DNA from: Bolinopsis microptera
Taxonomy: Eukaryota; Ctenophora; Tentaculata; Lobata; Bolinopsidae
Direction of reading: 5' to 3'
Length of the DNA stretch: 64,000 bases
Assembly (NCBI RefSeq): GCF_026151205.1
Contig: NC_087082.1
Coordinates: forward strand, 124,001 to 188,000
Shown piece after piece: positions 3,115-64,000 of the stretch (position 1 is the stretch's first letter; every line of letters begins with the position of its first letter). Made by a program: the position numbers and the translations under genes. A model generated the notes under the pieces. It saw only the letters and a list, made by a program, of their open reading frames with translations, was not told the DNA's origin and searched no databases.

Positions 3115-4405
3115 CAGTCTAATACGCTGAAATAAGCGAGGTTATTTGCAGTCTAATACGCTGAAATAAGCGAGGTTATTTGCAGTCCAATACGCTGAAA
3201 TAAGCGAGGTAATTTGCAGTCTAATACGCCAAAATAAGCGAGGTTATTTGCAGTCTAATACGCTGAAATAAGCGAGGTTATTTGCAGTCTAATACGCTTA
3301 AATAAGCGAGGTTATTTGCAGTATAATACGCTGAAATAAGCGAGGTTATTTGCAGTCTAATACGCTGAAATAAGCGAGGTTATTTGCAGTCTAATACGCT
3401 GAAATGAGCGAGGTTATTTGCAGTCTAATACGCTGAAATAAGCGAGGTTATTTGCCGTCTAATACGCTGAAATAAGCGAGGTTATTTGCCGTCTAATACG
3501 CTGAAATAAGCGAGGTTATTTGAAGTCTAATACGCTGAAATAAGCGAGGTTATTTGCAGTCTAATACGCTGAAATAAGCGAGGTTATTTGCAGTCTAATA
3601 CGCTGAAATAAGCGAGGTTATTTGCAGTCTAATACGCTGAAATAAGCGAGGTTATTTGCAGTCTAATACGCTGAAATAAGCGAGGTTATTTGCAGTCTAA
3701 TACGCTGAAATAAGCGAGGTTATTTGCAGTCTAATACGCTGAAATAAGCGAGGTTATTTGCAGTCTAATACGCTGAAATAAGCGAGGTTATTTGCAGTCT
3801 AATACGCTGAATAAGCGAGGTTATTTGCAGTCTAATACGCTTAAATAAGCGAGGTTATTTGCAGTCTAATACGCTGAAATAAGCGAGGTTATTTGCAGTC
3901 TAATACGCTGAAATAGGCGAGGTTATTTGCAGTCTAATACGCTGAAATAAGCGAGGTTATTTGCAGTCTAATACGCTGAAATAAGCGAAGTTATTTGCAG
4001 TCTAATACGCTGAAATAAGCGAGGTTATTTGCAGTCTAATACGCTGAAATAAGCGAGGTTATTTGCAGTCTAATACGCTGAAATAAGCGAGGTTATTTGC
4101 AGTCTAATACGCTGAAATAAGCGAGGTTATTTGCAGTCTAATACGCTGAAATAAGCGAGGTTATTTGCAGTCTAATACGCTGAAATAAGCGAGGTTATTT
4201 GCAGTCTAATACGCTGAAATAAGCGAGGTTATTTGCAGTCTAATACGCTGAAATAAGCGAGGTTATTTGCAGTCTAATACGCTGAAATAAGCGAGGTTAT
4301 TTGCAGTCTAATACGCTGAAATAAGCGAGGTTATTTGCAGTCTAATACGCTGAAATAAGCGAGGTTATTTGCAGTCTAATACGCTGAAATAAGCGAGGTT
4401 ATTTG
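3115..4405. repeat. 34-bp minisatellite, about 38 copies
   Basis: Tandem head-to-tail array of a 34-bp unit beginning cagtctaatacgctgaaata. Copies are nearly identical, with scattered single changes and one unit that is 1 bp short. There is no spacer between units, so this is a minisatellite and not a CRISPR array. It encodes no open frame. Confidence 0.97.
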
Positions 4406-28800: not shown

Positions 28801-29206
28801 CCGAAAAATTTGGTGGATATTGGAGTTGATATAGTGATCAAAATGGGGCAAATTACGCTGCTTTTAGCTGTAACATACCCAGATTTGATATTGAATAATT
28901 AACACTCTTTCGGCTTTGCTATTTGTGCTTGCCAGCCCTCACTTTCCACAACATCCTCCATACCATCCCTCACATCATCAATCATATCATCTCACTTTCA
29001 TATCATTCCTGTCTACGTTGGTATGTCAGTGTGTCAGTCTATGGATTCTTATTATAATTATTTCTATATATCTATAATATCGCACATTCTTATTCACGTT
29101 GCTCATTATTATACTCTATACTACTCTTCTCTCTCCCAGGTCCTGAGGCCTGTCTGACGGGACACCACCCTGAACGGTCCACCGGCTGCCCCCGCCTCTA
29201 CTGATA

Positions 29207-31210: not shown

Positions 31211-31215
31211 TATAA

Positions 31216-34200: not shown

Positions 34201-34617
34201 ATCAGTGAACAGAAACTTACTAGCAAATTCTTTGAGAGAGAGCACACCAAGCCAATTTTTGCCCGTCAATCACTCATGACATTGCATAATTTATACGCGT
34301 ATCACTGCTGCAATGAACTTTTTAAAGTCTTTAAATATCGAACACCAATTGCACTATTTGAACTTTTCTGTTTGTCTAAAAGACCCGGCAAAGAAACTCT
34401 TCTTATAACAACCATGCCCTCAAACAGTTTCGTTTACAAATCTAGTTGCCTTTGGAATTCATTCCGTCAGATGTTGGCACTGAACGACCTTGAAATCACT
34501 CATGGTGTATTCAAATCAAAGGTAAAAAAAGTCATTCTCTCGTCTCAGGGTAAAGGTGACAAGAATACCTGGGCCCCTTTGGCAAACTTTCTGAACTCAG
34601 GCAGCTTGAACGACTAA
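31216..34617 (+). CDS. LINE ORF2 polyprotein: zinc finger, APE endonuclease, reverse transcriptase
   Basis: 1133 residues. The N-terminus has a second PHD-like C4HC3 finger (C11, C14, C27, C30, H35, C38, C53, C56). An apurinic-type endonuclease spans about 125-350: FYNIDGN, E161 in LALAETN, GVLYRSPNGD, LGDFN (D269, N271) and the terminal SSHH. The reverse transcriptase spans about 635-910: NYRPVS, FGFRKSHST, FIDLSKAFDTIDH, GVPQGSCLGPLLF and the catalytic FADD (813-816). A C-terminal region follows. The order EN-RT without an RNase H is that of CR1/L2/Jockey-type LINEs. The frame is unbroken. The ATG lies 5 nt after the ORF1 stop, so translation may depend on reinitiation. Confidence 0.93.
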   Translation: MFKINSTKEKCGCCSKNINIGQRFLECQSCQNIIHKICFKTSEFKLTDSILLCKVCSKRENLIYNPFKDLCTTNEDLFKDSENDKFYSENWSEAIGSLQTASSILDKCSYYRLKSLHQHTPENSGLKTLFYNIDGNKSNFDLFLSELATQKTKFSILALAETNTDAENCDVYALDGYSHFYGDKLQGKAKGSGVCLYIHDSLNATINDQLCTITPNLETLYVTINHGDSKLNVGVLYRSPNGDSVKFDEEYTQLMSKFPKNAKTITLGDFNYDLLKNQSNKKQVQNFENTMLSYGYFPLISRPTHSVNVGQSSCIDNIFTDEIDLVTLSGVIEDTSSHHKPIFAFFDISHLTSRKTSPKPKQLQSYDFSNRNVELLTKHLLSKKCILTNNENPIEFDEFFEIFSSAIDSCCKLDKPKLTKRNPISNPWISDSIIEAIEKKGQLYDNWVNSKKLPDFKPVGDLKLHKIFRDYRRCLKKIIKNQKDTYNCNKILENSDSSKKMWEVINEIRGKRKKTIKPQFMVDGVRVVERRVIANKFNEYFASIASKMNENTHNGLLLEPLPSFLEFMPPKTLDSIYFHDCSEDEISEIIANLKSGKASDFPIRVIKKLSGILSPTLVVQFNRLISQGIFPSVLKLGKITPIYKKDNEELIENYRPVSTLPIFGKIFEKIIYKRLYSFLVSQGILHDSQFGFRKSHSTSHALNYSVFHIQKALKQGLHVLGIFIDLSKAFDTIDHTILLEKLEIYGIRGVPLKLLESYLSDREQCVSVLGEVSDRLPVLYGVPQGSCLGPLLFLIYINDLTNSQLDNTSYVLFADDTNIFVVAKTRAEAYNNANRVLRSVHEYTLANKLHVNAKKSCYIEFNTAKRKLDDQSLLIENRLYLNGLPLSKVQETKFLGVIVDEGLTFNPYRDKLVRKLSSCSGRLYMIKDKIPSSIHKDLYHTLFESHLSYGITVWGGASNNKLQPLFVAQKKCVRIMFGDKKAYLDKFMTCARTRPISEQKLTSKFFEREHTKPIFARQSLMTLHNLYAYHCCNELFKVFKYRTPIALFELFCLSKRPGKETLLITTMPSNSFVYKSSCLWNSFRQMLALNDLEITHGVFKSKVKKVILSSQGKGDKNTWAPLANFLNSGSLND

Positions 34618-46900: not shown

Positions 46901-49900
46901 AAAATAACTCACATGTGAACGGAGCAACTGACAGACTCTTCCTGGTCAGTGAAATCTTATTGTTACATCAAATCTAGCAAATGTCATTCTCAAGTTCAGT
47001 GTTCACCACTCTAGCACATGTCATTCTCAAGTTCAGTGTTCACCACTCTAGCACATGTCATTTTCAAGTTCAGTGTTCACCACTCTAGCACATGTCATTC
47101 TCAAGTTCAGTGTTCACCACTCTAGCACATGTCATTCTCAAGTTCAGTGTTCACCACTCTAGCACATGTCATTCTCAAGTTCAGTGTTCACCACTCTAGC
47201 AAATGTAATTCTCAAGTTCAGTGTTCACCACTCTAGCACATGTCATTCTCAAGTTCAGTGTTCACCACTCTAGCACATGTCATTCTCAAGTTCAGTGTTC
47301 ACCACTCTAGCACATTTCATTCTCAAGTTCAGTGTTCACCACTCTAGCACATGTCATTTTCAAGTTCAGTGTTCACCACTCTAGCACATGTCATTCTCAA
47401 GTTCAGTGTTCACCACTCTAGCACATGTCATTCTCAAGTTCAGTGTTCACCACTCTAGCACATGTCATTCTCAAGTTCAGTGTTCACCACTCTAGCAAAT
47501 GTCATTTTCAAGTTCAGTGTTCACCACTCTAGCAGATGTCATTCTCAAGTTCAGTGTTCACCACTTTAGCACATGTCATTTTCAAGTTCAGTGTTCACCA
47601 CTCTAGCACATGTCATTCTCAAGTTCAGTGTTCACCACTCTAGCAAATGTAATTCTCAAGTTCAGTGTTCACCACTCTAGCACATATCATTCTCAAGTTC
47701 AGTGTTCACCACTCTAGCACATGTCATTCTCAAGTTCAGTGTTCACCACTCTAGCAAATGTAATTCTCAAGTTCAGTGTTCACCACTCTAGCACATGTCA
47801 TTCTCAAGTTCAGTGTTCACCACTCTAGCACATGTCATTCTCAAGTTCAGTGTTCACCACTCTAGCACATGTCATTCTCAAGTTCAGTGTTCACCACTCT
47901 AGCAAATGTCATTTTCAAGTTCAGTGTTCACCACTCTAGCAGATGTCATTCTCAAGTTCAGTGTTCACCACTTTAGCACATGTCATTTTCAAGTTCAGTG
48001 TTCACCACTCTAGCACATGTCATTCTCAAGTTCAGTGTTCACCACTCTAGCAAATGTAATTCTCAAGTTCAGTGTTCACCACTCTAGCACATATCATTCT
48101 CAAGTTCAGTGTTCACCACTCTAGCACATGTCATTCTCAAGTTCAGTGTTCACCACTCTAGCAAATGTAATTCTCAAGTTCAGTGTTCACCACTCTAGCA
48201 CATGTCATTCTCAAGTTCAGTGTTCACCACTCTAGCACATGTCATTCTCAAGTTCAGTGTTCACCACTCTAGCACATGTCATTCTCAAGTTCAGTGTTCA
48301 CCACTCTAGCACATGTAATTCTCAAGTTCAGTGTTCACCACTCTAGCAAATGTAATTCTCAAGTTCAGTGTTCACCACTCTAGCACATGTCATTCTCAAG
48401 TTCAGTGTTCACCACTCTAGCACATGTCATTCTCAAGTTCAGTGTTCACCACTCTAGCACATTTCATTCTCAAGTTCAGTGTTCACCACTCTAGCACATG
48501 TCATTTTCAAGTTCAGTGTTCACCACTCTAGCACATGTCATTCTCAAGTTCAGTGTTCACCACTCTAGCACATGTCATTCTCAAGTTCAGTGTTCACCAC
48601 TCTAGCACATGTCATTCTCAAGTTCAGTGTTCACCACTCTAGCACATGTCATTCTCAAGTTCAGTGTTCACCACTCTAGCAAATGTCATTTTCAAGTTCA
48701 GTGTTCACCACTCTAGCAGATGTCATTCTCAAGTTCAGTGTTCACCACTTTAGCACATGTCATTTTCAAGTTCAGTGTTCACCACTCTAGCACATGTCAT
48801 TCTCAAGTTCAGTGTTCACCACTCTAGCAAATGTAATTCTCAAGTTCAGTGTTCACCACTCTAGCACATATCATTCTCAAGTTCAGTGTTCACCACTCTA
48901 GCACATGTCATTCTCAAGTTCAGTGTTCACCACTCTAGCAAATGTAATTCTCAAGTTCAGTGTTCACCACTCTAGCACATGTCATTCTCAAGTTCAGTGT
49001 TCACCACTCTAGCACATGTCATTCTCAAGTTCAGTGTTCACCACTCTAGCACATTTCATTCTCAAGTTCAGTGTTCACCACTCTAGCACATGTCATTCTC
49101 AAGTTCAGTGTTCACCACTCTAGCAAATGTAATTCTCAAGTTCAGTGTTCACCACTCTAGCACATGTCATTCTCAAGTTCAGTGTTCACCACTCTAGCAA
49201 ATGTAATTCTCAAGTTCAGTGTTCACCACTCTAGCACATGTCATTCTCAAGTTCAGTGTTCACCACTCTAGCACATGTCATTCTCAAGTTCAGTGTTCAC
49301 CACTCTAGCACATGTCATTCTCAAGTTCAGTGTTCACCACTCTAGCACATGTCATTCTCAAGTTCAGTGTTCACCACTCTAGCACATGTCATTCTCAAGT
49401 TCAGTGTTCACCACTCTAGCAAATGTAATTCTCAAGTTCAGTGTTCACCACTCTAGCACATGTCATTCTCAAGTTCAGTGTTCACCACTCTAGCACATGT
49501 CATTCTCAAGTTCAGTGTTCACCACTCTAGCACATGTCATTCTCAAGTTCAGTGTTCACCACTCTAGCACATGCCATTCTCAAGTTCAGTGTTCACCACT
49601 CTAGCACATGTCATTCTCAAGTTCAGTGTTCACCACTCTAGCAAATGTAATTCTCAAGTTCAGTGTTCACCACTCTAGCACATGTCATTCTCAAGTTCAG
49701 TGTTCACCACTCTAGCACATGTCATTTTCAAGTTCAGTGTTCACCACTCTAGCACATGTCATTCTCAAGTTCAGTGTTCACCACTCTAGCACATGTCATT
49801 CTCAAGTTCAGTGTTCACCACTCTAGCAAATGTAATTCTCAAGTTCAGTGTTCACCACTCTAGCACATGTCATTCTCAAGTTCAGTGTTCACCACTCTAG

Positions 49901-52900
49901 CACATGTCATTTTCAAGTTCAGTGTTCACCACTCTAGCACATGTCATTCTCAAGTTCAGTGTTCACCACTCTAGCAAATGTAATTCTCAAGTTCAGTGTT
50001 CACCACTCTAGCACATGTCATTCTCAAGTTCAGTGTTCACCACTCTAGCACATGTCATTCTCAAGTTCAGTGTTCACCACTCTAGCACATGTCATTTTCA
50101 AGTTCAGTGTTCACCACTCTAGCAGATGTCATTCTCAAGTTCAGTGTTCACCACTCTAGCACATGTCATTTTCAAGTTCAGTGTTCACCACTCTAGCACA
50201 TGTCATTCTCAAGTTCAGTGTTCACCACTCTAGCACATGTCATTCTCAAGTTCAGTGTTCACCACTCTAGCACATGTCATTCTCAAGTTCAGTGTTCACC
50301 ACTCTAGCAAATGTAATTCTCAAGTTCAGTGTTCACCACTCTAGCACATGTCATTCTCAAGTTCAGTGTTCACCACTCTAGCACATGTCATTCTCAAGTT
50401 CAGTGTTCACCACTCTAGCACATGTAATTCTCAAGTTCAGTGTTCACCACTCTAGCACATATCATTCTCAAGTTCAGTGTTCACCACTCTAGCACATATC
50501 ATTCTCAAGTTCAGTGTTCACCACTCTAGCACATGTCATTCTCAAGTTCAGTGTTCACCACTCTAGCACATGTCATTTTCAAGTTCAGTGTTCACCACTC
50601 TAGCAGATGTCATTCTCAAGTTCAGTGTTCACCACTCTAGCACATGTCATTTTCAAGTTCAGTGTTCACCACTCTAGCACATGTCATTCTCAAGTTCAGT
50701 GTTCACCACTCTAGCACATGTCATTCTCAAGTTCAGTGTTCACCACTCTAGCACATGTCATTCTCAAGTTCAGTGTTCACCACTCTAGCAAATGTAATTC
50801 TCAAGTTCAGTGTTCACCACTCTAGCACATGTCATTCTCAAGTTCAGTGTTCACCACTCTAGCACATGTCATTCTCAAGTTCAGTGTTCACCACTCTAGC
50901 ACATGTAATTCTCAAGTTCAGTGTTCACCACTCTAGCACATATCATTCTCAAGTTCAGTGTTCACCACTCTAGCACATGTCATTCTCAAGTTCAGTGTTC
51001 ACCACTCTAGCACATATCATTCTCAAGTTCAGTGTTCACCACTCTAGCACATGTCATTCTCAAGTTCAGTGTTCACCACTCTAGCACATGTCATTCTCAA
51101 GTTCAGTGTTCACCACTCTAGCACATGTCATTCTCAAGTTCAGTGTTCACCACTCTAGCACATGTCATTCTCAAGTTCAGTGTTCACCACTCTAGCAAAT
51201 GTAATTCTCAAGTTCAGTGTTCACCACTCTAGCACATGTCATTCTCAAGTTCAGTGTTCACCACTCTAGCACATGTCATTCTCAAGTTCAGTGTTCACCA
51301 CTCTAGCACATTTCATTCTCAAGTTCAGTGTTCACCACTCTAGCACATATCATTCTCAAGTTCAGTGTTCACCACTCTAGCACATGTCATTTTCAAGTTC
51401 AGTGTTCACCACTCTAGCACATGTCATTCTCAAGTTCAGTGTTCACCACTCTAGCACATGTCATTCTCAAGTTCAGTGTTCACCACTCTAGCACATGTCA
51501 TTCTCAAGTTCAGTGTTCACCACTCTAGCAAATGTAATTCTCAAGTTCAGTGTTCACCACTCTAGCACATGTCATTCTCAAGTTCAGTGTTCACCACTCT
51601 AGCACATGTCATTCTCAAGTTCAGTGTTCACCACTCTAGCAAATGTAATTCTCAAGTTCAGTGTTCACCACTCTAGCACATGTCATTCTCAAGTTCAGTG
51701 TTCACCACTCTAGCACATGTCATTCTCAAGTTCCCTGTTCACCACTCTAGCACATGTCATTCTCAAGTTCAGTGTTCACCACTCTAGCACATGTCATTCT
51801 CAAGTTCAGTGTTCACCACTCTAGCACATGTCATTCTCAAGTTCAGTGTTCACCACTCTAGCACATATCATTCTCAAGTTCAGTGTTCACCACTCTAGCA
51901 CATGTCATTCTCAAGTTCCCTGTTCACCACTCTAGCACATGTCATTCTCAAGTTCAGTGTTCACCACTCTAGCACATGTCATTCTCAAGTTCAGTGTTCA
52001 CCACTCTAGCACATGTCATTCTCAAGTTCCCTGTTCACCACTCTAGCACATGTCATTCTCAAGTTCAGTGTTCACCACTCTAGCACATGTCATTTTCAAG
52101 TTCAGTGTTCACCACTCTAGCACATGTCATTCTCAAGTTCAGTGTTCACCACTCTAGCACATGTCATTCTCAAGTTCAGTGTTCACCACTCTAGCACATG
52201 TCATTCTCAAGTTCAGTGTTCACCACTCTAGCAAATGTAATTCTCAAGTTCAGTGTTCACCACTCTAGCACATGTCATTCTCAAGTTCAGTGTTCACCAC
52301 TCTAGCACATGTCATTCTCAAGTTCAGTGTTCACCACTCTAGCTCTCTAGCACATTTCATTCTCAAGTTCAGTGTTCACCACTCTAGCACATATCATTCT
52401 CAAGTTCAGTGTTCACCACTCTAGCACATGTCATTCTCAAGTTCAGTGTTCACCACTCTAGCAAATGTAATTCTCAAGTTCAGTGTTCACCACTCTAGCA
52501 CATGTCATTCTCAAGTTCAGTGTTCACCACTCTAGCACATGTCATTCTCAAGTTCAGTGTTCACCACTCTAGCACATGTCATTTTCAAGTTCAGTGTTCA
52601 CCACTCTAGCACATGTCATTCTCAAGTTCAGTGTTCACCACTCTAGCACATGTCATTCTCAAGTTCAGTGTTCACCACTCTAGCAAATGTCATTCTCAAG
52701 TTCAGTGTTCACCACTCTAGCACATGTCATTCTCAAGTTCAGTGTTCACCACTCTAGCACATGCCATTCTCAAGTTCAGTGTTCACCACTCTAGCACATG
52801 CCATTCTCAAGTTCAGTGTTCACCACTCTAGCACATGTCATTCTCAAGTTCAGTGTTCACCACTCTAGCAGATGTCATTCTCAAGTTCAGTGTTCACCAC

Positions 52901-55900
52901 TCTAGCACATATCATTCTCAAGTTCAGTGTTCACCACTCAGTGTTCTCCTTGGTCATTTCATGTTTAATTCCTGTTTAATTCCTCGGGTAAGCTCTTTTC
53001 AGTCAGTTCCTCGGGTAAGCAATCCAGCAGTCCTATCCACTATCCAGCGTACCACTTTCCTACACCGATAGTTTTGACAATGATGCTTGGGCGTATTCTG
53101 ACAAGAATACCTGATTCAAGTTGTAAAGCTCAATTAATCCAATTAATTTTTATATTTGATTTAAATCATTGGTTTCAGGTTGTACAGAAACTTTGTGAGA
53201 AGTTAAGAGCAGAGCCAAGTTATCTTGCTAAGAGTGAGATAGTGCGATCATACTTCAAGCAGAATCCAAGCTCCCCTGACGAAACATATCTGATGTTGAA
53301 ACAGATGATACCGTCAGTTGATAAACGAGTTTTCAATGTCAAAGACAAGCAGGTGAAACTGATAGTCGTTCATTTGTAGGGGGTCGCTCTATATAATATA
53401 TACACTCATAATCATATCCCCCGACCCCTCAATCTGAGTATGGTAACTTTGCAGAAAACGTACATTTAAAAATTGCTTGTATTGTTCTTTGCGAACATAC
53501 TGGACGACCCATTTTCGCACAGTAGATCATTACTTTCCCCGCCTCATCTCAGTTGATAAAAGTCCTTTCCTCTGTATTCTCCTCCTCACTGGACGACATG
53601 TCAGAGCATCTTGAGAAAGGAGACGTTGCAGAAACGGGACGAGTCTTCCACATCAGGAGCAGTCTGATTAAACCTCAATCTAGCTGTGTTACTATGAGAC
53701 AGGTGCAGTCTGATTAAACCTCAATCTAGCTGTGTTACTATGAGACAGGTGCAGTCTGATTAAACCTCAATCTAGCTGTGTTACTATGAGACAGGTGCAG
53801 TCTGATTAAACCTCAATCTAGCTGTGTTACTATGAGACAGGTGCAGTCTGATTAAACCTCAATCTAGCTGTGTTACTATGAGACAGGTGCAGTCTGATTA
53901 AACCTCAATCTAGCTGTGTTACTATGAGACAGGTGCAGTCTGATTAAACCTCAATCTAGCTGTGTTACTATGAGACAGGCCAGGTGCAGTCTGATTAAAC
54001 CTCAATCTAGCTGTGTTACTATGAGACAGGTGCAGTCTGATTAAACCTCAATGTGTAGTATACTCCGTATACCCTAGTAATAGTATATATATAGTATTAT
54101 AGCTACTCTGTATACTCCGTATACCCAGGTGGATGTGTTTCTAGAGAAGTTAGCTACAATTACAAAGGAGGAAGAACAACGTCTACACTTCAAGAGTATT
54201 CTGAAACACCTCACTCCGCAAGATCTAAAGTACTTGCTGTATCTAATAAAGAAAGATCTGCGAATAAACGCCCGGGAAAAGCATATACTAGAGGGTTTAC
54301 ACCCTGTAGCGTACAAAGCTTTCCAGATGTCACATGATCTCAGAGACGTGGTTAACAGATACGGCTCAGCAGGTTTTATTATCATTCTTAATATTATATT
54401 TGCTATTATTATATATTATTTGAGCTTGAGGTTAGTTAAACGGATATTATATAAAGGTTTGTAAACCGAATTAACACTCCGATGGTGCGCTGTGTGTACA
54501 AGTCTATATTCCTACGTAGCTAACTACAAGTCTATATTCCTACGTAGCTAACTACAAGTCTGTATTCCTACGTAGCTAACTACAAGTCTATATTCCTTCG
54601 TAGCTAACTACAAGTCTATATTCCTACGTAGCTAACTACAAGTCTATATTCCTACGTAGCTAACTACAAGTCTATATTCCTACGTAGCTAACTACAAGTC
54701 TATATTCCTACGTAGCTAACTACAAGTCTATATTCCTACGTAGCTAACTACAAGTCTATATTCCTACGTAGCTAACTACAAGTCTATATTCCTACGTAGC
54801 TAACTACAAGTCTATATTCCTACGTAGCTAACTACAAGTCTATATTCCTACGTAGCTAACTACAAGTCTATATTCCTACGTAGCTAACTACAAGTCTATA
54901 TTCCTACGTAGCTAACTACAAGTCTATATTCCTACGTAGCTAACTACAAGTCTATATTCCTACGTAGCTAACTACAAGTCTATATTCCTTCGTAGCTAAC
55001 TACAAGTCTATATTCCTACGTAGCTAACTACAAGTCTATATTCCTACGTAGCTAACTACAAGTCTATATTCCTACGTAGCTAACTACAAGTCTATATTCC
55101 TACGTAGCTAACTACAAGTCTATATTCCTACGTAGCTAACTACAAGTCTATATTCCTACGTAGCTAACTACAAGTCTATATTCCTACGTAGCTAACTACA
55201 AGTCTATATTCCTACGTAGCTAACTACAAGTCTATATTCCTACGTAGCTAACTACAAGTCTATATTCCTTCGTAGCTAACTACAAGTCTATATTCCTACG
55301 TAACTAACTACATGAAGAGTATCTTGTTAGAGTTTAAATTGCAAACAAAATCCAGGGAGCTCGGTGAAATCAGGAGACACCAGTGGGGTTGGATTACAAC
55401 TAATGACCCCGATCAGACCCATGCTGGCTGAAGCTTGCAGATCAATCGCTCAAGCTCTTGGCAAATGTCCTGAGGTAATAATAATAATCGTTTAACTATT
55501 GTTAAACGATTATTGCACAATTGCAAAATATAATATTCACTATGATAATATTTCCAAAAAGAAATCAAAGCAACCCCAAAAATTTTCCCAAATTCAAGTG
55601 CCATGGCCCATGAATCATATACATGCTTTGACAACATTTTAAAGTGCAGATAACATTAAATTTTATGTAATTTTGTATGTTGATTGGTTAATTTAACTGA
55701 CCAATTAATGAGCAACCCCCAGGGAATGTACAGTGAGATAAAGTACGACGGAGAGCGGGTACAGCTTCACAAACAAGGGTCCCAGTTCCAGTTCTACTCA
55801 CGCAGTCTTAAACCCGTCATGGCTCACAAGGTACAGCTTCACAAACAAGGGTCCCAGTTCCAGTTCTACTCACGCAGTCTTAAACCCGTCATGGCTCACA

Positions 55901-58900
55901 AGGTACAGCTTCACAAACAAGGGTCCCAGTTCCAGTTCTACTCACGCAGTCTTAAACCCGTCATGGCTCACAAGGTACAGCTTCACAAACAAGGGTCCCA
56001 GTTCCAGTTCTACTCACGCAGTCTTAAACCCGTCATGGCTCACAAGGTACAGCTTCACAAACAAGGGTCCCAGTTCCAGTTCTACTCACGCAGTCTTAAA
56101 CCCGTCATGGCTCACAAGGTACAGCTTCACAAACAAGGGTCCCAGTTCCAGTTCTACTCACGCAGTCTTAAACCCGTCATGGCTCACAAGGTACAGCTTC
56201 ACAAACAAGGGTCCCAGTTCCAGTTCTACTCACGCAGTCTTAAACCCGTCATGGCTCACAAGGTACAGCTTCACAAACAAGGGTCCCAGTTCCAGTTCTA
56301 CTCACGCAGTCTTAAACCCGTCATGGCTCACAAGGTACAGCTTCACAAACAAGGGTCCCAGTTCCAGTTCTACTCACGCAGTCTTAAACCCGTCATGGCT
56401 CACAAGGTACAGCTTCACAAACAAGGGTCCCAGTTCCAGTTCTACTCACGCAGTCTTAAACCCGTCATGGCTCACAAGGTACAGCTTCACAAACAAGGGT
56501 CCCAGTTCCAGTTCTACTCACGCAGTCTTAAACCCGTCATGGCTCACAAGGTACAGCTTCACAAACAAGGCTCCCAGTTCCAGTTCTACTCACGCAGTCT
56601 TAAACCCGTCATGGCTCACAAGGTACAGCTTCACAAACAAGGGTCCCAGTTCCAGTTCTACTCACGCAGTCTTAAACCCGTCATGGCTCACAAGGTACAG
56701 CTTCACAAACAAGGGTCCCAGTTCCAGTTCTACTCACGCAGTCTTAAACCCGTCATGGCTCACAAGGTACAGCTTCACAAACAAGGGTCCCAGTTCCAGT
56801 TCTACTCACGCAGTCTTAAACCCGTCATGGCTCACAAGGTACAGCTTCACAAACAAGGGTCTCAGCTCCAGTTCTACTCACGCAGTCTTAAACCCGTCAT
56901 GGCTCACAAGGTACAGCTTCACAAACAAGGGTCCCAGTTCCAGTTCTACTCACGCAGTCTTAAACCCGTCATGGCTCACAAGGTACAGCTTCACAAACAA
57001 GGGTCCCAGTTCCAGTTCTACTCACGCAGTCTTAAACCCGTCATGGCTCACAAGGTACAGCTTCACAAACAAGGGTCCCAGTTCCAGTTCTACTCACGCA
57101 GTCTTCAACCCGTCATGGCTCACAAGGTACAGCTTCACAAACAAGGGTCCCAGTTCCAGTTCTACTCACGCAGTCTTAAACCCGTCATGGCTCACAAGGT
57201 ACAGCTTCACAAACAAGGGTCTCAGCTCCAGTTCTACTCACGCAGTCTTAAACCCGTCATGGCTCACAAGGTACAGCTTCACAAACAAGGGTCCCAGTTC
57301 CAGTTCTACTCACGCAGTCTTAAACCCGTCATGGCTCACAAGGTACAGCTTCACAAACAAGGGTCCCAGCTCCAGTTCTACTCACGCAGTCTTAAACCCG
57401 TCATGGCTCACAAGGTACAGCTTCACAAACAAGGGTCCCAGTTCCAGTTCTACTCACGCAGTCTTAAACCCGTCATGGCTCACAAGGTACAGCTTCACAA
57501 ACAAGGGTCCCAGTTCCAGTTCTACTCACGCAGTCTTAAACCCGTCATGGCTCACAAGGTACAACTTCACAAGGTAAGCAGGCCTCCGTGCCTGCTTCTA
57601 GCTGCCTCCGTGCCTGCTTCTAGCTGCCTCCGTGCCTGCTTCTAGCTGCCTCCGTGCCTGCTTCTAGCTGCCTCCGTGCCTGCTTCTAGCTGCCTCCGTG
57701 CCTGCTTCTAGCTGCCTCCGTGCCTGCTTCTAGCTGCCTTCGTGCCTGCTTCTAGCTGCCTCCGTGCCTGCTTCTAGCTGCCTCCGTGCCTTCTCCTAGC
57801 TGCCTCCGTGCCTGCTTCTAGCTGCCTCCGTGCCTGCTTCTAGCTGCCTCCGTGCCGGCTTCTAGCTGCCTCCGTGCCTGCTCCTAGCTGCCTCCGTGCC
57901 TGCTTCTAGCTGCCTCCATGCCTGCTTCTAGCTGCCTCCGTGCCTGCTTCTAGCTGCCTCCGTGCCTGCTCCTAGCTGCCTCCGTGCCTGCTTCTAGCTG
58001 CCTCCGTGCCGGCTTCTAGCTGCCTCCGTGCCTGCTTCTAGCTGCCTCCGTGCCTGCTTCTAGCTGCCTCCGTGCCGGCTCTTCCCAGCTGCCACTGTAC
58101 TAGCACGTGATAATTGTGGCTCTTTTTAGCAACCTCTGAATGCTGCACTTTCTAGCTTCCACCGGCTCACAAATCTTTGCACGTGCACGTTCACCACCGT
58201 TACCATAATTACTGTGCAACTTCATATTTCTCATCAAATTTGCACGAGGGTGGTCGTACAGACAGACAGACATAATCTTTTGAATTATAATATAGATAAT
58301 TATTATATAATAAAGATACTGTATTCGAATAAACATTGGCTGGTTAATATTAATAAACCAGTCCCCCAATAAATAAAAATAGTTCAAAATTTATTGAATT
58401 ATGAATTAGTTCATAATTTATTAAATAATGAATAAGTTCATAACTTATTAAATAATGAATAACTTATTAATTAGTTTATTAACAAGTTAACCCCGCAGGT
58501 AGCAGATCTGACAGAGTCTGTTCCTAAAGCCTTCCCTACAGGTCAGGATATCATTCTGGATTGTGAGGTGCTACTAGTTGATAATATTACTGGTAAGTAA
58601 AATACACATAATATAATAGAGTACACTACTAGTTAGTAAAATACACATAATATAATAAAGTACACTACTAGTTAGTAAAATATAGTAGTATTGTGTAAAA
58701 TATAGTAGTATTATGTTTACTTATAGAATATGAGCTTGGATTTTTGTTCAAAGTAAGCTCCACTTACTTTGGAGTATGTCACACTATTATACTACTCACC
58801 ATATATTTGGAACTCCGTAATTGTGTCATAAATCCAGACTCCAGAGTTTTAAATTATATATTATAATACACATAATGAACATTTAATTTCCCTCAAAATT

Positions 58901-61900
58901 CATCTGAAACGATACAATAACAGGAAAACCACTGCCGTTTGGAACGCTTGGTATTCACAAGAAAAGTGCGTTTAAAGCAGCGAGCGTGTGCTTGTTTGTA
59001 TTCGATATCTTACTGCTTAACGGGAAGAGTTTAGTGAACGAGCCTATAAAGAAAAGAAGAGAAATTCTGAGGGAGAGTATCACAGAGATACCCAATAGAG
59101 TGATGCTCAGTGAGATGCAGTTGATAAAGACGGCAAGTGAGCTGGCAGGGATGATATCACACGTGTTAAGAGAGGGACTGGAAGGTCTGGTTCTGAAAGG
59201 TATTAACACCACTTACAAGCCTGGGGCGCGGCACTGGCTCAAAGTCAAGAAGGACTACCTACAAGGTTCAGCTTTATAATCATCTAGGGTAATGAGTATT
59301 GTTCATTCATTCAACATAAATTTGATATGATATTTTGATCAAAATTTCAAATAATGTTAAGTAAGTAGTGACCTGTGACCAATGATTACTGACCCTGTAT
59401 ATAAGTAAGTAGTGACCTGTGACCAATGATTACAGATCCTGTTTATAAGTGAGTAGTGACCTGTGACCAATGATTACTGATCCTGTATATATAAGTAAGT
59501 AGTGACCTGTGACCAATAATTACTGACCCTGTATATAAGTGAGTAGTGACCTGTGACCAATGATTACTGACCCTGTATATAAGTGAGTAGTGACCTGTGA
59601 CCAATGATTACTGATCCTGTATATATAAGTAAGTAGTGACCTGTGACCAATAATTACTGACCCTGTATATAAGTGAGTAGTGACCTGTGACCAATGATTA
59701 CTGATCCTGTATATATAAGTAAGTAGTGACCTGTGACCAATAATTACTGACCCTGTATATAAGTGAGTAGTGACCTGTGACCAATGATTACTGACCCTGT
59801 ATATATAATTGAGTAGTGACCTGTGACCAATGATTACTGACCCTGTATATAAGTGAGTAGTGACCTGTGACCAATGATTACTGACCCTGTATATAAGTGA
59901 GTAGTGACCTGTGACCAATGATTACTGACCCTGTATATAAGTGAGTAGTGACCTGTGACCAATGATTACTGACCCTGTATATATAATTGAGTAGTGACCT
60001 GTGACCAATGATTACTGACCCTGTATATAAGTGAGTAGTGACCTGTGACCAATGATTACTGACCCTGTATATATAAGTGAGTAGTGACCTGTGACCAATG
60101 ATTACTGACCCTGTATATAAGTGAGTAGTGACCTGTGACCAATAATTACTGACCCTGTATATAAGTGAGTAGTGACCTGTGACCAATGATTACTGACCCT
60201 GTATATAAGTGAGTAGTGACCTGTGACCAATGATTACTGACCCTGTATATGAGTGAGTAGTGACCAGGACCAGATGATTACTGACCCTGTATATAAGTGA
60301 GTAGTGACCTGTGACCAATGATTACTGACCCTGTATATAAGTGAGTAGTGACCTGTGACCAATGATTACTGATCCTGTATATATAAGTGAGTAGTGACCT
60401 GTGACCAATGAGTGAGTAGTGACCTGTGACCAATGAGTAGTGACCTGTGACCAATGATTAATTACCCTGTATATAAGTGAGTAGTGACCTGTTACCAATG
60501 ATTACTGACCCTGTATATAAGTGAGTAGTGACCTGTTACCAATGAAAATATGACCGTTTGAAAAAGTTTTGCACCAAACACGTTGACAAAGCCAAAAACA
60601 TACACTACAAAAAATTCTTTGAACAACACAAAGATAATTCTAAGAAGCAGTGGCAGATGATTAACGGACTTCTGAATAGGAAACCAGCCAAACCTACATC
60701 GATAAAACTGTCGGACGAAAACGGACAAGTCAGCACTCCGGCAGCAGTAGCAGAAAAATTTAATGATCACTTCTCAAACATCGCTCCAAAAATTAAATCT
60801 GAAATTAGTAGTAGGACCACTTTCGATCCTGGTGGGGCCCAGGGGACACTACGTAACCCTTCTCCAAATAGTATCTACATAAAACCAGTCACAACTACCG
60901 AAGTTCAAGACGTTATTAACCTATTTAAGAATAAAGCTACTCTTGACACCAAAATCCAACCACTCAAAATTGCCAACAGCTGTCATAATTTTACCACTGT
61001 ATTGGCCCACGTTGTTAACAGCTCGTTCGAACAAGGGGTCTTTCCTCAAGCCTTGAAAACGGCAAAAGTAGTTCCTGTACATAAAGGTGGATCTAAAACT
61101 GACATCAAAAATTACAGACCGATATCTCTACTTGCCACTTTCTCAAAAGTCTACGAAAAGCTTATGCACAATAGAGTCATAAATTTCTTGGATACCTACA
61201 ATATTCTTTGTGAAAATCAATACGGCTTCCGCCCAGGTAGGTCTTGTGAACATGCACTTCTTAATGCTAAAGACAGAATCCTCAATTCAATGTCTAAAAA
61301 GCAAGTTACTTTGCTCCTTTTGATTGACTTTAGCAAAGCCTTTGACCTTGTGGATCACTCCATACTCCTGAATAAGCTCGAGCACTATGGCATAAGAGGT
61401 CTAGCTTTAAACTGGTTTAAATCATATCTTATGAACAGAAACCAGTTTGTATCAATTGGATCCTCTGAATCCCCAGCCAATCCAATTATTTACGGTGTAC
61501 CCCAAGGTTCAATTTTGGGACCTCTCCTTTTTATAATCTACATAAACGATCTTCCTCAAATATCAGAAATAGCTAATTTCATCATGTACGCAGATGATGC
61601 AAACATTTTCTTAACAGGAGAAAATATAAACGAGGTTTATGATAAGCTCAAAATTCTTAGCGATGTCTTAGTTAAATGGGTAGATAGCAACGGATTAGCT
61701 CTAAATCTTAAAAAAACGAATTATATGATCTTTTCTCGACAAAGAAACCTCATTTATCGCGATGTAGTAATTTCTGGTGTCACAATCGAAAGAAAAACAG
61801 AAGCCCGTTTCTTAGGTGTTATAATAGATAACAAACTGAACTGGTCGCAACATATTTCTGCCATGAAAATGAAAATGGCCAGATACATTGGAGTCATGTA

Positions 61901-62670
61901 CAAACTTAAAAAATATTTGCCTCTGGAAGCACGTTTACAAATATATCACAGCTTTGTGCAGTCTCACCTTAATTACTGCTCCCTCGTCTGGGGTTTTGCT
62001 GCCAAATCCCATATAGAAACACTATTTGTTAAACAGAAAATGGGTCTTAGAGCAATACTACCAGGTTTTGTTAATTACTGGTACAAAGATGGTACACCAC
62101 CAGCAAGTACCAAGTCTGGTTTCTATGTACACAAAATATTGACAGTTCAAAGTATCATCGTGAAGAACGCATTAGTTTTTATACATAAGCTAAAAAACTT
62201 CCCAAGTCTAGTGCCTCCCTCTATAAAGAAAACAATACCTAACAGTGCACCAATATTTAACGTCGCCGATCCGGATTCGAGTCTTACAACTTTATGGTCA
62301 GATGAATACGGTAAACACCCTTACAATAATTCAGTATTCTACAAAGGTCCACTATTAGCAATAAACAGATATAGTGTCGCAGCAACTTCCTTGCCAAGTC
62401 TATTCAACCTTAACATCTACAAAAGGTGCATAAAAAACATGCTCATTGATCAACAAAACGAGGGCATTGCAGACGAATGGCCTAACTTTATGTTATACAA
62501 TATTACGGGACTAAGGAAATCAGAGCGCAACATCAACCGTAATGCTAATAATAACTCTGTCCCATAAGCACGCCATCACAGAATCAATTTCACTGCATAC
62601 CATCTCAGTTACACTGCCATCAATTCGCCAGCAAAAACGGCATGACGCTATGCGACTGATAACAGTCGTT

Positions 62671-62720
<50 letters not shown>

Positions 62721-63693
62721 GGAATAGCTAGCTAGCAGTAGCTATGCGCCTGTTTCCACTCTAACAACTCTAAAAGCATATTAATATGATAATTTCAACT
62801 AAAGGCAACTTTAAATGTGCTCAGCTATGTTTTGTTCGACAAGCTCTATTATATACATTTTAATCGTTTTAATGAGATCTAATCTTGTATGAGTTTTGAG
62901 TTTGAATTGATAACACTTATTATATATATTATTTTTTGAGTAAACATTGGCTGGTACTTCGGGCCGGTCCCCAACAAAAAAAAAAATGACTGACCCTGTA
63001 TATAAGTGAGTAGTGACCTGTGACCAATGATTACTGACCCTGTATATATAAGTGAGTAGTGACCTGTGACCAATGATTACTGACCCTGTATATGAGTGAC
63101 TAGATGACCAGGACCAGATGATTACTGACCCTGTATATAAGTGAGTAGTGACCTGATTACTGACCCTGTATATAAGTGAGTAGTGACCTGTTACCAATGA
63201 TGACTGACCCTGTATATAAGTGAGTAGTGACCTGTGACCAATGATTACTGACCCTGTATATATAAGTGAGTAGTGACCTGTGACCAATGATTACTGACCC
63301 TGTATATATAAGTGAGTAGTGACCTGTGACCAATGATTACTGACCCTGTATATGAGTGACTAGATGACCAGGACCAGATGACCAGGACCAGATGACCTGT
63401 GACTCAATGTGATAACTGTGAGTAGTGACCAGGACCAGATGACCTGTGACTCAATGTGATAACTGTGTCCAGTATATAAGTAACCAGATGACCTGTGACC
63501 TGTGACCTGTGACCAGGACCAGATGACCTGTGACTCAATGTGATAACTGTGTCCAGGCGGAGCTATGGCTGACAGTGCAGACTTGGTGGTGCTAGGAGGA
63601 TATCTAGGTACTGGTAACAAGGGCGGCATGTGCTCTATATTCCTCATGGGCTGCTTCTCGCCTGCTTCTAACTCCTGGAAAACTGTCTGTAAA
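40837..63693 (+). CDS. LIG3: DNA ligase III, twelve exons (partial at 3' end)
   Basis: ATP-dependent DNA ligase that seals nicks in base-excision and single-strand-break repair in nucleus and mitochondria, usually with XRCC1. Twelve exons join in matching phase: PARP-type zinc finger (exons 1-2), linker (3-4), DNA-binding domain (5-8), adenylation domain with KYDGER (exon 9) and its continuation (10-11), and the first OB-domain residues (12). Order and spacing follow vertebrate LIG3 almost residue for residue. The rest of the OB domain and any BRCT domain lie beyond the window. The gene spans about 23 kb for roughly 560 codons because introns hold minisatellites and retroelements. Exons 6 and 9 have tandemly amplified 3' ends. 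No promoter was identified; an upstream exon carrying a mitochondrial leader cannot be excluded. Confidence 0.93.
40985..41085 (-). mobile_element. LINE family B 3' UTR piece (minus strand)
   Basis: Reverse complement of the block with ctgcacagcagattgaagct and ccctagaagggtgttct. It continues after the ORF1-like retroposon at 42355-42450 (gtgggcatgaaggtaacc), so the retroposon landed inside this older LINE fragment. Located in LIG3 intron 1. Confidence 0.65.
41096..42349 (+). mobile_element. ORF1-only retroposon 1 in LIG3 intron 1
   Basis: A 1.25-kb insertion flanked by agtaataa on both sides (41088-41095 and 42350-42357), an 8-bp target duplication. It holds a LINE-type ORF1 but no reverse transcriptase. 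Towards its 3' end there are short catttcattt repeats. It must have been mobilised in trans, or it is a LINE-derived ORF1-only family. Confidence 0.65.
41216..42095 (+). pseudogene. LINE ORF1-like protein, frameshifted (retroposon 1)
   Basis: The frame from MDDDEWDTLRRLSGYSTC to about 41920 and a second frame from EDHKTVFISPDRSPEDQ to the TAA at 42095 form one protein broken by a frameshift. It has an acidic N-terminus, a coiled coil in the middle (about residues 80-130), then RNVLIFGLKETDE, RVGWK and RPVKVSLGNSSTVHQIL. The last segments resemble the nucleic-acid-binding C-terminal half of LINE ORF1 proteins. The intact relative is at 44000-44917. Confidence 0.75.
42888..43420 (+). mobile_element. 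LINE family B 3' end directly before LIG3 exon 2
   Basis: It starts within the last RT codons (SSYEINDSFDYFYTP), continues with 3' UTR and passes through ccttagaagggtactctatt and gtcctgcagcagattgaagt. It ends in attctaattataattccaat, the degenerate (attcta)n tail. The LIG3 exon 2 acceptor follows within about 20 bp. The middle (43020-43300) contains rearranged sequence. Confidence 0.7.
43439..43564 (+). CDS. LIG3: LIG3 exon 2: second half of PARP-type zinc finger
   Basis: 42 codons between ttttcag and gtaggt, phase 0-0. It encodes LKTNPFSDDGGLMTDWHHPKC and then VFETFARAR. The WHHPKC segment supplies the His and Cys zinc ligands. With exon 1 this is a complete C-C-H-C nick-sensing finger, and NPFSDDGG is a family hallmark. 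Confidence 0.92.
43806..43862. repeat. 44-bp unit, single copy left of retroposon 2
   Basis: tacttatactatggtttact, then caataaaactaggtacagta. The same unit occurs at least three times at 45260-45415, on the other side of the ORF1-only element. Confidence 0.85.
43863..45260 (+). mobile_element. ORF1-only retroposon 2 in LIG3 intron 2
   Basis: The sequence around and upstream of its ORF parallels retroposon 1 (ctctcttatctnt, then a run to the start codon through ttatacaa). It is flanked by one copy (left) and about three copies (right) of a 44-bp unit. These could be terminal repeats of the element, a tandem 3' tail, or a target minisatellite. No RT is present. Confidence 0.6.
44000..44917 (+). 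CDS. LINE ORF1-like nucleic-acid-binding protein, intact (retroposon 2)
   Basis: 305 residues from the ATG at 44000, chosen because it aligns with the start of the relative at 41216; the frame is open further upstream. Layout: acidic N-terminus, a helical part with a strong coiled coil at about 100-140 (heptads with KDEQLQLFK), SYSAAVQ, then DRSKNLIVFGLKEEEGEQ, ATRVGWKRPG, IRPVKITVPSSTAVHQIL, WICPDRSSEERAARKNV and a basic end. This is the architecture of coiled-coil plus RRM/CTD-type ORF1 proteins of LINEs, which bind their RNA as multimers. The ORF is intact although no RT accompanies it. Confidence 0.75.
   Translation: MYTTEDDLHLTRSQKKLKDFNYEEKEDVEGCADRWFTSMASLLKLENFEIRGDMDQEILMSPSIYKRYMAEWVMQAADLVRRQSSQMSAMMEIVECLKTEALADKEKMVRLQDQLLVQKDEQLQLFKTSVEETVQTTVETGIKSYSAAVQKNSTNGAVCNSKILKNVMKSVAAEEDRSKNLIVFGLKEEEGEQLPALVAAVLEEIGEKPHFEATRVGWKRPGITAIRPVKITVPSSTAVHQILMKTGRLRMADAHKDVWICPDRSSEERAARKNVVTDLKKKRAEQTHLHYIRNGKVCSRVKKAP
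45260..45415. repeat. 44-bp tandem repeat, about 3 copies, right of retroposon 2
   Basis: Three direct copies of the unit found once at 43806-43862. The last contains an extra agggaat before aaaactaggt, which also occurs at about 43797 left of the element. Confidence 0.85.
45416..46547. other. LIG3 intron 2, remainder
   Basis: Unique intron sequence, with a (tta)n/T-rich tract at about 46120-46150. I see no further exon; the protein joins perfectly without one. Confidence 0.55.
46548..46619 (+). CDS. LIG3: LIG3 exon 3: linker after zinc finger
   Basis: 24 codons between atcag and gtaaga, phase 0-0: ATTKKIESSDDIEHFDLLKS and KDQD. ATTKKIE follows the zinc finger in the family, so the splice is well fixed. 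Confidence 0.88.
46768..46944 (+). CDS. LIG3: LIG3 exon 4: basic linker to DNA-binding domain
   Basis: 59 codons between ttgcag and gtcagt, phase 0-0. It starts VIEHLIKNYLATRKESK, continues with an Ala/Lys/Ser-rich disordered linker and ends GATDRLFL, which joins directly to VVQKLC of exon 5. Intron 4 after it holds the largest array in the window. Confidence 0.85.
46974..52938. repeat. 37-bp minisatellite, about 161 copies, in LIG3 intron 4
   Basis: About 5.96 kb of head-to-tail copies of a 37-bp unit (ctagcacatgtcattctcaa, then gttcagtgttcaccact). Common variants are caaatgtaatt, cacatatcatt, cacatttcatt, cagatgtcatt and tcattttcaag. Blocks of variants recur in the same order at multiples of 37 bp (for example about 11 and 21 units apart), so higher-order duplications occurred. 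One unit (52342) has a 6-bp insertion. There are no spacers, so it is not a CRISPR array. Confidence 0.97.
53179..53352 (+). CDS. LIG3: LIG3 exon 5: DNA-binding domain, start
   Basis: 58 codons between tttcag and gtgaaa, phase 0-0. It contains LCEKLRAEPSYLAKSEIVRS, then YLMLKQMIPSVDKRVFNVKDKQ. This is the start of the helical DNA-binding domain of ligase III, with the conserved PSY..K..IV and PGV..VYN.NDKQ-type positions. Confidence 0.93.
53553..53702 (+). CDS. LIG3: LIG3 exon 6: DNA-binding domain; 3' end tandemly amplified
   Basis: 50 codons between atctcag and gtgcag, phase 0-0. It contains SSLDDMSEHLEKGDVAETGR and ends CVTMRQ. The last 46 bases of the exon, with the donor, are repeated about 7.6 more times in the following intron. 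As 46 is not a multiple of 3, reading on would break the frame, so the first donor must be used for a functional protein. It then joins exon 7 (VDVFLEKL) exactly as in the family. Confidence 0.9.
53657..54051. repeat. 46-bp minisatellite made from the LIG3 exon 6 end and its donor
   Basis: About 8.6 units. The first unit is the exon 6 3' end itself; each further unit carries the same coding-like sequence (agtctgattaaacctcaatc, then tagctgtgttactatgagac) and again the cag/gtgcag donor. One unit has a 5-bp insertion (gccag). Confidence 0.93.
54129..54372 (+). CDS. LIG3: LIG3 exon 7: DNA-binding domain, end
   Basis: 81 codons plus one base between cccag and gtttta, phase 0 to 1. It includes VDVFLEKLATITKEEEQ, LKYLLYLIKKDLRIN, AREKHILEGLHPVAYKAF and DLRDVVNRYGSA. 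All blocks align with the family. The donor is weak, but the next exon continues the frame. Confidence 0.93.
54498..55312. repeat. 28-bp minisatellite in LIG3 intron 7, about 29 copies
   Basis: Nearly perfect tandem copies of a 28-bp unit (acaagtctatattcctacgt then agctaact). A few units have cttcgtag or ctgtattcc. Confidence 0.96.
55356..55474 (+). CDS. LIG3: LIG3 exon 8: link into adenylation domain
   Basis: 119 nt between atccag and gtaata, phase 1 to 0. It encodes a short linker, then LQLMTPIRPMLAEACRSIAQ and ALGKCPE. MTPIRPMLAEAC is the conserved entry to the nucleotidyltransferase domain. Confidence 0.92.
55723..57573 (+). CDS. LIG3: LIG3 exon 9: catalytic lysine motif; 25 tandem copies of its 3' end
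   Basis: The exon starts after ccccag with GMYSEIKYDGER, ligase motif I; its lysine takes the AMP. The next 24 codons (VQLHKQGSQFQFYSRSLKP and VMAHK) end the normal exon, followed by donor gtacag at 55831. Family exons also end here, and exon 10 continues exactly. In this genome the 72-bp block 55759-55830 is repeated to 25 copies (to 57558), plus a 15-bp partial copy and a strong donor gtaagc at 57574. The frame is open throughout and every copy ends in aag/gtacag. Splicing at the first donor gives a standard ligase (exon 55723-55830); splicing at the last adds about 580 residues inside the adenylation domain. I favour the first donor; transcripts must decide. Confidence 0.88.
55759..57573. 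repeat. 72-bp in-frame minisatellite, 25 copies, with a donor at each junction
   Basis: Exactly 25 units of 72 bp followed by 15 bp of a 26th. Most are identical; several carry ctcagctcc or single changes (Lys to Gln in one). The high identity and the multiple-of-3 length keep the frame open for 653 codons. It derives from the LIG3 exon 9 3' end. Confidence 0.97.
57583..58092. repeat. 22-bp minisatellite in LIG3 intron 9, about 23 copies
   Basis: GC-rich tandem unit cctccgtgcctgcttctagc-tg with occasional ctcctag or gccggc variants. It starts 9 bp after the last donor of the 72-bp array, so two different arrays abut. Confidence 0.95.
58499..58592 (+). CDS. LIG3: LIG3 exon 10: adenylation domain
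   Basis: 31 codons plus one base between cgcag and gtaagt, phase 0 to 1. VADLTESVPKAFPTGQD, then IILDCEVLLVDNIT. The CEVLLVD segment holds the conserved Glu of motif III. An AT-rich sequence just after the donor is itself repeated twice (58596-58675). Confidence 0.92.
58924..59265 (+). CDS. LIG3: LIG3 exon 11: adenylation domain, motifs IV and V
   Basis: 342 nt between aacag and gttcag, phase 1 to 1. It contains GKPLPFGTLGIHKKSAF, VCLFVFDILLLNG, EIPNRVMLSEM, LREGLEGLVLKG (motif IV) and RHWLKVKKDYLQ (motif V, K-x-K). Nearly every block matches the family. The donor is weak but the junction with exon 12 is exact. Confidence 0.94.
59358..60545. repeat. 44/46-bp minisatellite in LIG3 intron 11, left part
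   Basis: About 26 copies of a unit containing gtgagtagtgacctgtgacc and aatgattactgaccctgtat; some units have an extra ta. The array continues at 62988-63370 after a LINE insertion. Confidence 0.95.
60546..62987 (+). mobile_element. LINE family A, 5'-truncated copy in LIG3 intron 11
   Basis: It splits the 44-bp array. The left junction is gttaccaatga, the right junction atgactgaccctg; an uninterrupted relative reads gttaccaatgatgactgacc (63191), so a duplication of about 4 bp (atga) is likely. The element starts within the coding region (no endonuclease) and ends in the ggccggtccccaac tail plus A run. Its 3' UTR has a run of about 38 T at 62676-62713 where copy 1 has only four. Confidence 0.9.
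60558..62567 (+). CDS. LINE family A reverse transcriptase, N-terminally truncated
   Basis: 669 codons without interruption. The pre-RT linker is followed by the RT core: [72 protein letters not shown] and the catalytic YADDANIF. The thumb and C-terminal region are the part also seen at 1-510. Missing is the APE endonuclease that intact Jockey/CR1-type LINEs carry, because the copy is 5' truncated. The nominal start is therefore not real. Confidence 0.9.
   Translation: [669 protein letters not shown]
62988..63375. repeat. 44/46-bp minisatellite in LIG3 intron 11, right part
   Basis: Continuation of the 59358-60545 array, about 8 copies, more irregular. Confidence 0.93.
63376..63556. repeat. 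Short repeats running into the LIG3 exon 12 acceptor
   Basis: The word ctcaatgtgataactgtgtc and cag occurs at 63453-63474 and again at 63535-63556; the second copy forms the real acceptor of exon 12. Interspersed are gaccaggaccagatgacctg repeats. The acceptor region itself has thus been duplicated. Confidence 0.75.
63557..63693 (+). CDS. LIG3: LIG3 exon 12: end of adenylation domain and start of OB domain
   Basis: It starts after tgtccag in phase 1: GAMADSADLVVLGGYLGTGN, KGGMCSIFLMGCF and SWKTVCK. This follows DYLQ of exon 11 as in the family. The 3' end is uncertain: gtaggc at 63694 or gtcagt at 63705 may be the donor. The 23 bp from 63694 are repeated immediately (63717-63739), duplicating the donor again. 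Later exons lie outside the window. Confidence 0.88.
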
Positions 63694-63739
63694 GTAGGCA
63701 ACGGGTCAGTTGGGTTGTAGGCAACGGGTCAGTTGGGTT

Positions 63740-64000
63740 GGCTTTTTTTGGGATTTTATGGTTTTTAAAAATTTTCCCCTTGTTTTTGTAACTTTATTTC
63801 GATTATTTTAAAATACAAAAATACATATATAATATATATATTATATATCAACGCAGCCAGAAGTTTCCATGATTGCATCATTTTAATACAATTTATCATG
63901 AGCTTTTGAAAACAGTCCGACGCTGAGCCCAAATTTCAGCAAAATAACGCCGTTTTTTTCGAACACTTTTTTTGATTCAAGCTGGTCAATCTGCAAGTTG
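63740..64000. other. LIG3 intron 12, start
   Basis: AT-rich intronic sequence, with an AT alternating tract at 63825-63848. No exon seen. Confidence 0.5.

Follow-up and report, generated by a model that had tools for sequence, protein, structure and literature searches.

An exon of the Bolinopsis microptera gene that matches LIG3 carries, over its 3' end, a stop-free array of 25 tandem 72-bp units with candidate 5' splice sites at the unit junctions; minisatellites that span splice junctions form a recurrent class in this genome, real but patchy. We consider it probable that the LIG3 array is a minisatellite formed between two GGTA words in the 3' end of the exon, with about 26 copies, and that splicing takes place at the exon-proximal donor, so that the rest of the array leaves with the intron. 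In such a gene, the cell must select the correct site among many near-identical ones. The choice of the spliceosome between identical 5' splice sites has long been of interest and has mostly been addressed in constructs and site pairs; natural ladders with 2 to 50 intact donors are available in this genome for the study of that choice, and LIG3 is the reverse case, with about 25 weak donors placed ahead of one strong donor.

The LIG3 gene and its exons

The window is a stretch of 64,000 nucleotides (G000:C11:124001-188000) and belongs to a 264.65-Mb assembly with 232 contigs. A profile built from eight pieces of glutamate receptors of this genome has its best match in ML032222a, a name of the Mnemiopsis leidyi type (174 bits, versus 79 for mammalian GluA2), in accordance with a ctenophore host; a single receptor had matched mammalian and other known receptors among the 60 matches listed, and STING gave no match. 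LIG3 is characterized by an N-terminal PARP-type zinc finger; its exons were sought from position 53179 onward, and ten were located in the window or in the 10 kb that follow it, all open in the joined frame. The joined product contains one 72-bp unit only, and the start of its fourth exon (55356-55474) was set by hand at 55356 for frame closure, with the phase of this start checked. When the first 572 residues of the product were compared to human LIG3, 560 residues matched (3l2p, 660 bits), whereas the best DNA ligase 1 and the best DNA ligase 4 reached 181 and 165 bits, respectively; thus, among eukaryotic ligases, the catalytic core is closest to LIG3. By these matches, the gene carrying the array is LIG3. 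The following exons are referred to below:

53553..53702, plus strand: upstream LIG3 exon, with its 3' end within a 46-bp array
55723..55830, plus strand: KYDGER exon of LIG3 if the first donor is the exon end (36 codons including unit 1; Pfam match and human colinearity)
58499..58592, plus strand: next LIG3 exon, starting VADLTESVPKAF, in phase 0 from unit 1
58924..59265, plus strand: LIG3 exon running from KPLPFGTLGIHKK to KKDYLQ, with an array-free donor
63557..63704, plus strand: LIG3 exon, starting GAMADSADLVVLGGYLG

The KYDGER motif, which we take to be the catalytic-lysine motif of DNA ligase, is present in the exon that bears the array, and this exon matches Pfam DNA_ligase_A_M (PF01068) with 44.6 bits. 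The alignment to human LIG3 is gapless at the joint SRSLKPVMAHK/VADLTE, which places the end of the colinear exon directly behind unit 1. An earlier, sequence-only reading had assigned the array to the KYDGER exon of LIG3 and had proposed that the next exon continues in phase after the first unit, restoring a normal ligase; both proposals agree with the bit scores, with the phase (0) and with the colinearity to human LIG3.

The 72-bp array and its candidate donors

The array and its immediate surroundings consist of the following elements:

55759..57558, plus strand: 25 tandem 72-bp units, stop-free in the coding frame
55831..55836, plus strand: first candidate donor, AAG/GTACAG, recurring at later unit junctions (24 in total), rank 10 of 81
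57559..57573, plus strand: 15-bp remnant of a 26th unit; 20 of 21 letters agree with a deletion model
57574..57579, plus strand: strong terminal donor, AAG/GTAAGC, probably ancestral, rank 73 of 81
57582..58080, plus strand: intronic 22-bp minisatellite, 22.7 copies, just 3' of the terminal donor

The 72-bp unit is purely exonic. Every full unit is exactly 72 bp long (25 of 25), and 20 of the 25 are identical, while units 12, 16, 19, 21 and 23 carry one or two substitutions each; the distinct changes across these variants comprise two synonymous and two amino-acid changes. The initial description of 25 exact 72-bp copies without a stop is therefore right in the count, the length and the open frame, which crosses all units, but not in the letters: because these five units vary, “exactly” is valid for unit length and not for every letter. 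The array is not a product of chance, given its Tandem Repeats Finder (TRF) score of 3574, with 99% matches and no indels, and, as a tandem of highly similar units in the 10-100 bp range, it has the properties of a minisatellite.

The unit junctions read AAG/GTACAG 24 times, AAG/GTACAA once and AAG/GTAAGC once, yielding 26 candidate donors. GTAAGC directly follows the 15-bp remnant, in line with the claim that a stronger donor lies past the last unit. When scored against 81 donors inferred in kinesin and myosin genes (see below), the internal donors of the array rank 10 (score 4.97) and the terminal donor ranks 73. Other weak donors in LIG3 are AAG/GTTCAG (rank 3) and CAG/GTTTTA (rank 4), and CAG/GTACAG occurs among the 81 as a myosin donor. 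An unused coding CGG/GTACAG at unit 1 has a score of 4.68, nearly that of the internal donors. As an acceptor, the junction CACAAG ranks 1 of 81 by sequence score. Use of the first donor would make the KYDGER exon 108 nt long, and use of the last one 1851 nt; among 41 internal exons sampled here, the median length is 150 nt and the longest exon has 421 nt. It should be noted that the strong donor comes last in the KYDGER exon, unlike in the other arrays.

Arrays at other donors

The suggestion that the array is special to one exon was not borne out: arrays also carry four further donors of LIG3 and, of the 81 kinesin/myosin donors, five. Among the placed LIG3 donors (between ten exons), 5 of 9 lie within tandem arrays, and the four besides the 72-bp array are:

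53654..54052, plus strand: 46-bp array, 8.6 copies, seven intact ACAG/GTGCAG junctions; stop 4 residues past the first donor
58588..58682, plus strand: 39-bp array, 2.4 copies, sharing 5 bases with the exon end; GT kept in the first copy only
63694..63740, plus strand: 23-bp repeat, two copies, over the donor CGG/GTCAGT of the exon 63557..63704; stop 5 residues past the donor
634-825 of locus L005: 38-bp array, 5.3 copies, the fifth LIG3 donor array

In these four arrays, a stop is encountered 2-7 residues beyond the first donor.

The kinesin/myosin sample consisted of 29 loci (174,027 bp) with 143 exon matches out of 182, the rest being outside the chosen loci. Introns were placed via protein continuity and splice words; 84 were computed and 81 kept, after removal of three by judgement (L026 2401, L013 721 and L029 1152). 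These 81 introns are computed placements, some of which may be off, and pairs of matches that are not adjacent in the profile were left unformed. Arrays span 5 of the 81 donors (38 bp x 2, 53 bp x 8, 53 bp x 2, 33 bp x 52 and 35 bp x 25), with a stop 1-18 residues past the first donor. Thus, in none of the nine donor arrays other than the 72-bp array does the frame stay open for more than 18 residues beyond the first donor, and those genes therefore need the first copy. The number of competing intact donor copies per array varies from 2 to 50; one first donor precedes 49 further ones. The period is divisible by three in 3 of the 10 donor arrays, which is the chance value and gives no support to a functional reading of the in-frame period of the LIG3 array. 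Large open-frame values were also considered as a sign of in-frame arrays and dropped, as several exons per locus share one value. Arrays of the LIG1/LIG4-type loci L001, L002 and L004 were left out of the exon comparison.

Genome-wide, tandem AGGTAAGT triplets (gaps of 10-40, both strands) number 1,347, compared to 11 for the reversed word. This is not a count of arrays, because the matches are clustered: among the matches listed, the triplets stem from 7 places and 5 unit types. Four of the places were inspected, and one (L057) is a coding exon end, whereas three are without a recognised exon. The exon at L057 belongs to a Reprolysin match (21.4 bits versus a cut-off of 20.8), and its EECDCG is presumably a disintegrin-like end. 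The seven CCT and dynein loci inspected have no array across the end of a protein match; this check covered overlap with match ends only, with introns unrefined, and the array L041 2407-2455 lies inside a gapped match. Given this negative result at the match ends of the seven loci, we regard the class as patchy.

Acceptors and the question of a bias to junctions

By script, an array spans the acceptor in 1 of the 81 kinesin/myosin introns. Three further clear acceptor arrays were found by eye outside the paired introns, at L014 706, L025 8398 and L023 5713 (the last with 3 exonic bases only), and the acceptor at L022 765 lies in a degenerate 27-bp repeat of two copies. Given these three arrays beside the scripted 5 versus 1, a donor-only phenomenon was rejected. 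TTTTCAGG triplets number 317 genome-wide, compared to 95 for the reversed word, a weaker excess than at donors; among the matches listed, they stem from 5 places and 4 unit types. An asymmetry of arrays in favor of donors over acceptors is only suggested by these comparisons.

In the 81 introns, the first intron base lies in an array at 7.4% of donors and the last at 1.2% of acceptors; arrays take up 17.6% of intron bases (mean per intron 10.5%), and at a position 40 bases inside the exon their coverage is 0%. Thus, in this sample, donors show no enrichment over introns at large (7.4% versus 17.6% of intron bases). Random birth of arrays combined with tolerance at junctions is the simplest view, and a junction bias is the bolder one. 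In its full form, the bolder view holds that splice junctions are the favored birthplaces of arrays in this lineage and that ladders of identical sites, probably polymorphic in length, have thereby arisen in many genes, with splicing restricted to the exon-proximal copy; LIG3, as a rare array that is both in frame and purely exonic, would also yield isoforms in steps of 24 residues; we consider this combination distinctly unlikely.

Origin and splicing of the LIG3 array

The coding sequence before unit 1 is gagcgGGTAcag and the terminal donor is cacaaGGTAagc; both share GGTA, and the two words lie at a distance of 72 bp within a single unit. The remnant equals a 26th unit minus the 57 bp between two TCACAA words, with 20 of 21 letters as predicted. 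Since the remnant fits this 57-bp deletion, the strong terminal donor is probably ancestral, and, in the simplest history, the internal junctions would be chimeras of the exon end and the exon interior. The proposed series of events is as follows: (i) a tandem duplication would have occurred between GGTA words 72 bp apart, one coding and one at the original donor; (ii) the array would have expanded to about 26 copies; (iii) a 57-bp deletion in the 26th unit would have left the 15-bp remnant before the ancestral donor; (iv) under recognition across the exon, the spliceosome would pick the exon-proximal donor; and (v) the later copies would leave as intron, with LIG3 remaining normal. Use of the exon-proximal copy is the probable reason why such arrays are tolerated.

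Use of the exon-proximal donor is suggested by the colinear one-unit product, by the nine arrays that need the first donor and by the 108-nt exon size. Human data point in both directions: according to the available text of PMC9225289, sites nearest across the exon are favored with long introns, and the stronger 5' site dominates in 86% of competitions. The 86% rule stands against exon-proximal use in LIG3, as do the order of donor strengths, the difference from the other arrays and the patchiness of the class.

As the internal donors are weak and the terminal one is strong, a translated array or mixed isoforms may occur. If the terminal donor or a mixture of donors were used, the array would be translated in whole or in part, with up to 581 residues (24 x 24 + 5) added to the catalytic domain, or would give a ladder in steps of 24. 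The frame open over all units, the ranks of 73 against 10 of 81 and the dominance of strength in the human competitions are compatible with this outcome, which we nevertheless consider rather unlikely: an internal exon of 1851 nt is far beyond the sampled maximum of 421 (n = 41), the insert would lie between conserved stretches of the nucleotidyltransferase domain, and coding past the first donor is impossible in each of the nine other donor arrays. We prefer removal of the array as intron over an isoform ladder, which is a minor possibility for LIG3. The in-frame condition of the array probably results from a period divisible by three by chance together with a purely exonic unit, and does not indicate function.

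A damaged LIG3 allele or pseudogene, knocked out by the array, would account for a strong donor that now stands behind 25 units, but is very unlikely, as all ten exons found are open in the joined frame and close to human LIG3, and other places with ligase domains in the genome are only on contigs C1 and C3. An assembly error at a true locus of one or few units is highly improbable: a 1.8-kb array at 99% matches is difficult to assemble, but the variant units 12, 16, 19, 21 and 23 are interspersed, and arrays of differing units occur at independent splice sites. Splicing of the array as an intron of its own, from the first to the last AG/GT junction and with the strong terminal donor still used, is extremely unlikely, since the required acceptor CACAAG ranks 1 of 81, even though all junctions are AG/GT, any pair of them removes a multiple of 72 nt, and the available text of PMC4974935 describes a fission-yeast intron that spans tandem 24-bp duplicates with AGGT.

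Comparison with known systems

Intron gain via tandem duplication of exon segments bearing AGGT has been proposed by Rogers (1989) and is illustrated by ATP2A1, fission-yeast 24-bp arrays and potato RdRp in the available text of PMC4974935. As in the Rogers model, LIG3 has a tandemly duplicated exonic unit ending in AG/GT, with the peptide preserved if the extra copies are spliced out. Unlike in that model, the colinear LIG3 gene already contains the intron, which the array on its donor lengthens, and no new acceptor is required; a usable acceptor from the duplicate is not found either, given the sequence score of CACAAG. The arrays described here resemble minisatellites and variable number tandem repeats (VNTRs) in having highly identical units of 10-100 bp placed head to tail, and differ from ordinary ones in that the units span exon-intron junctions and bear splice sites.

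In the available portion of PMC9225289, position decides among competing 5' splice sites of equal strength, as it appears to do here; that work concerns human site pairs, whereas the present arrays are natural ladders of 2-50 intact copies and, in LIG3, position and strength oppose each other. Because of this opposition, the KYDGER exon is the most testable member of the class. Tandem repeats make up 13% of the Hormiphora genome in the available text of PMC8527503. Among the papers listed in searches of the open-access literature on repeats, splicing and intron gain, none describes splice-junction arrays in ctenophores by its title or the beginning of its abstract, and the available parts of PMC12221973 and PMC6823432 contain nothing on such arrays. 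Spliced aligners, according to the available text of PMC10632439, invent junctions between repeats; therefore, splice-junction arrays can mislead annotation.

Repeat arrays at LIG3 and at a kinesin locus

A short way ahead of the first LIG3 exon found, on its upstream side, is an array of about 6 kb (46973-52939) that consists of 161 copies of a 37-bp unit. One of the LIG3 introns holds a minisatellite with a 44-bp unit (59358-63551), which extends as far as the next acceptor and is interrupted by a reverse-transcriptase frame at 60546-62567. At the other end of the gene, in the extracted locus that carries the downstream exons (L005, own coordinates), the final codons and the stop codon of LIG3 form the start of a 19-bp array of approximately 120 copies (1457-3730).

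An array of 112 copies of a 26-bp unit was observed at one of the sampled kinesin/myosin loci (L023, 2805-5715, gene strand), and its end falls on a kinesin acceptor. The acceptor TTACTTGTAG|GTA is present in the array copies that were read at this site, i.e., the last few only.

Retrotransposon and dynein frames

The window also contains a non-LTR retrotransposon with two long frames (29174-34617). The first frame encodes an AlkB-like 2OG oxygenase domain, with PHD and GDSL lipase matches that both fall below the cut-off; the second encodes a reverse transcriptase, with an endonuclease match below the cut-off.

Among the PF12781 matches in the whole assembly, several dynein heavy-chain ones have very long reported open frames, up to 3703 aa. 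These long-frame matches look as if they were nearly intronless, alongside intron-rich ones; the reported open-frame length may join exons into one value.
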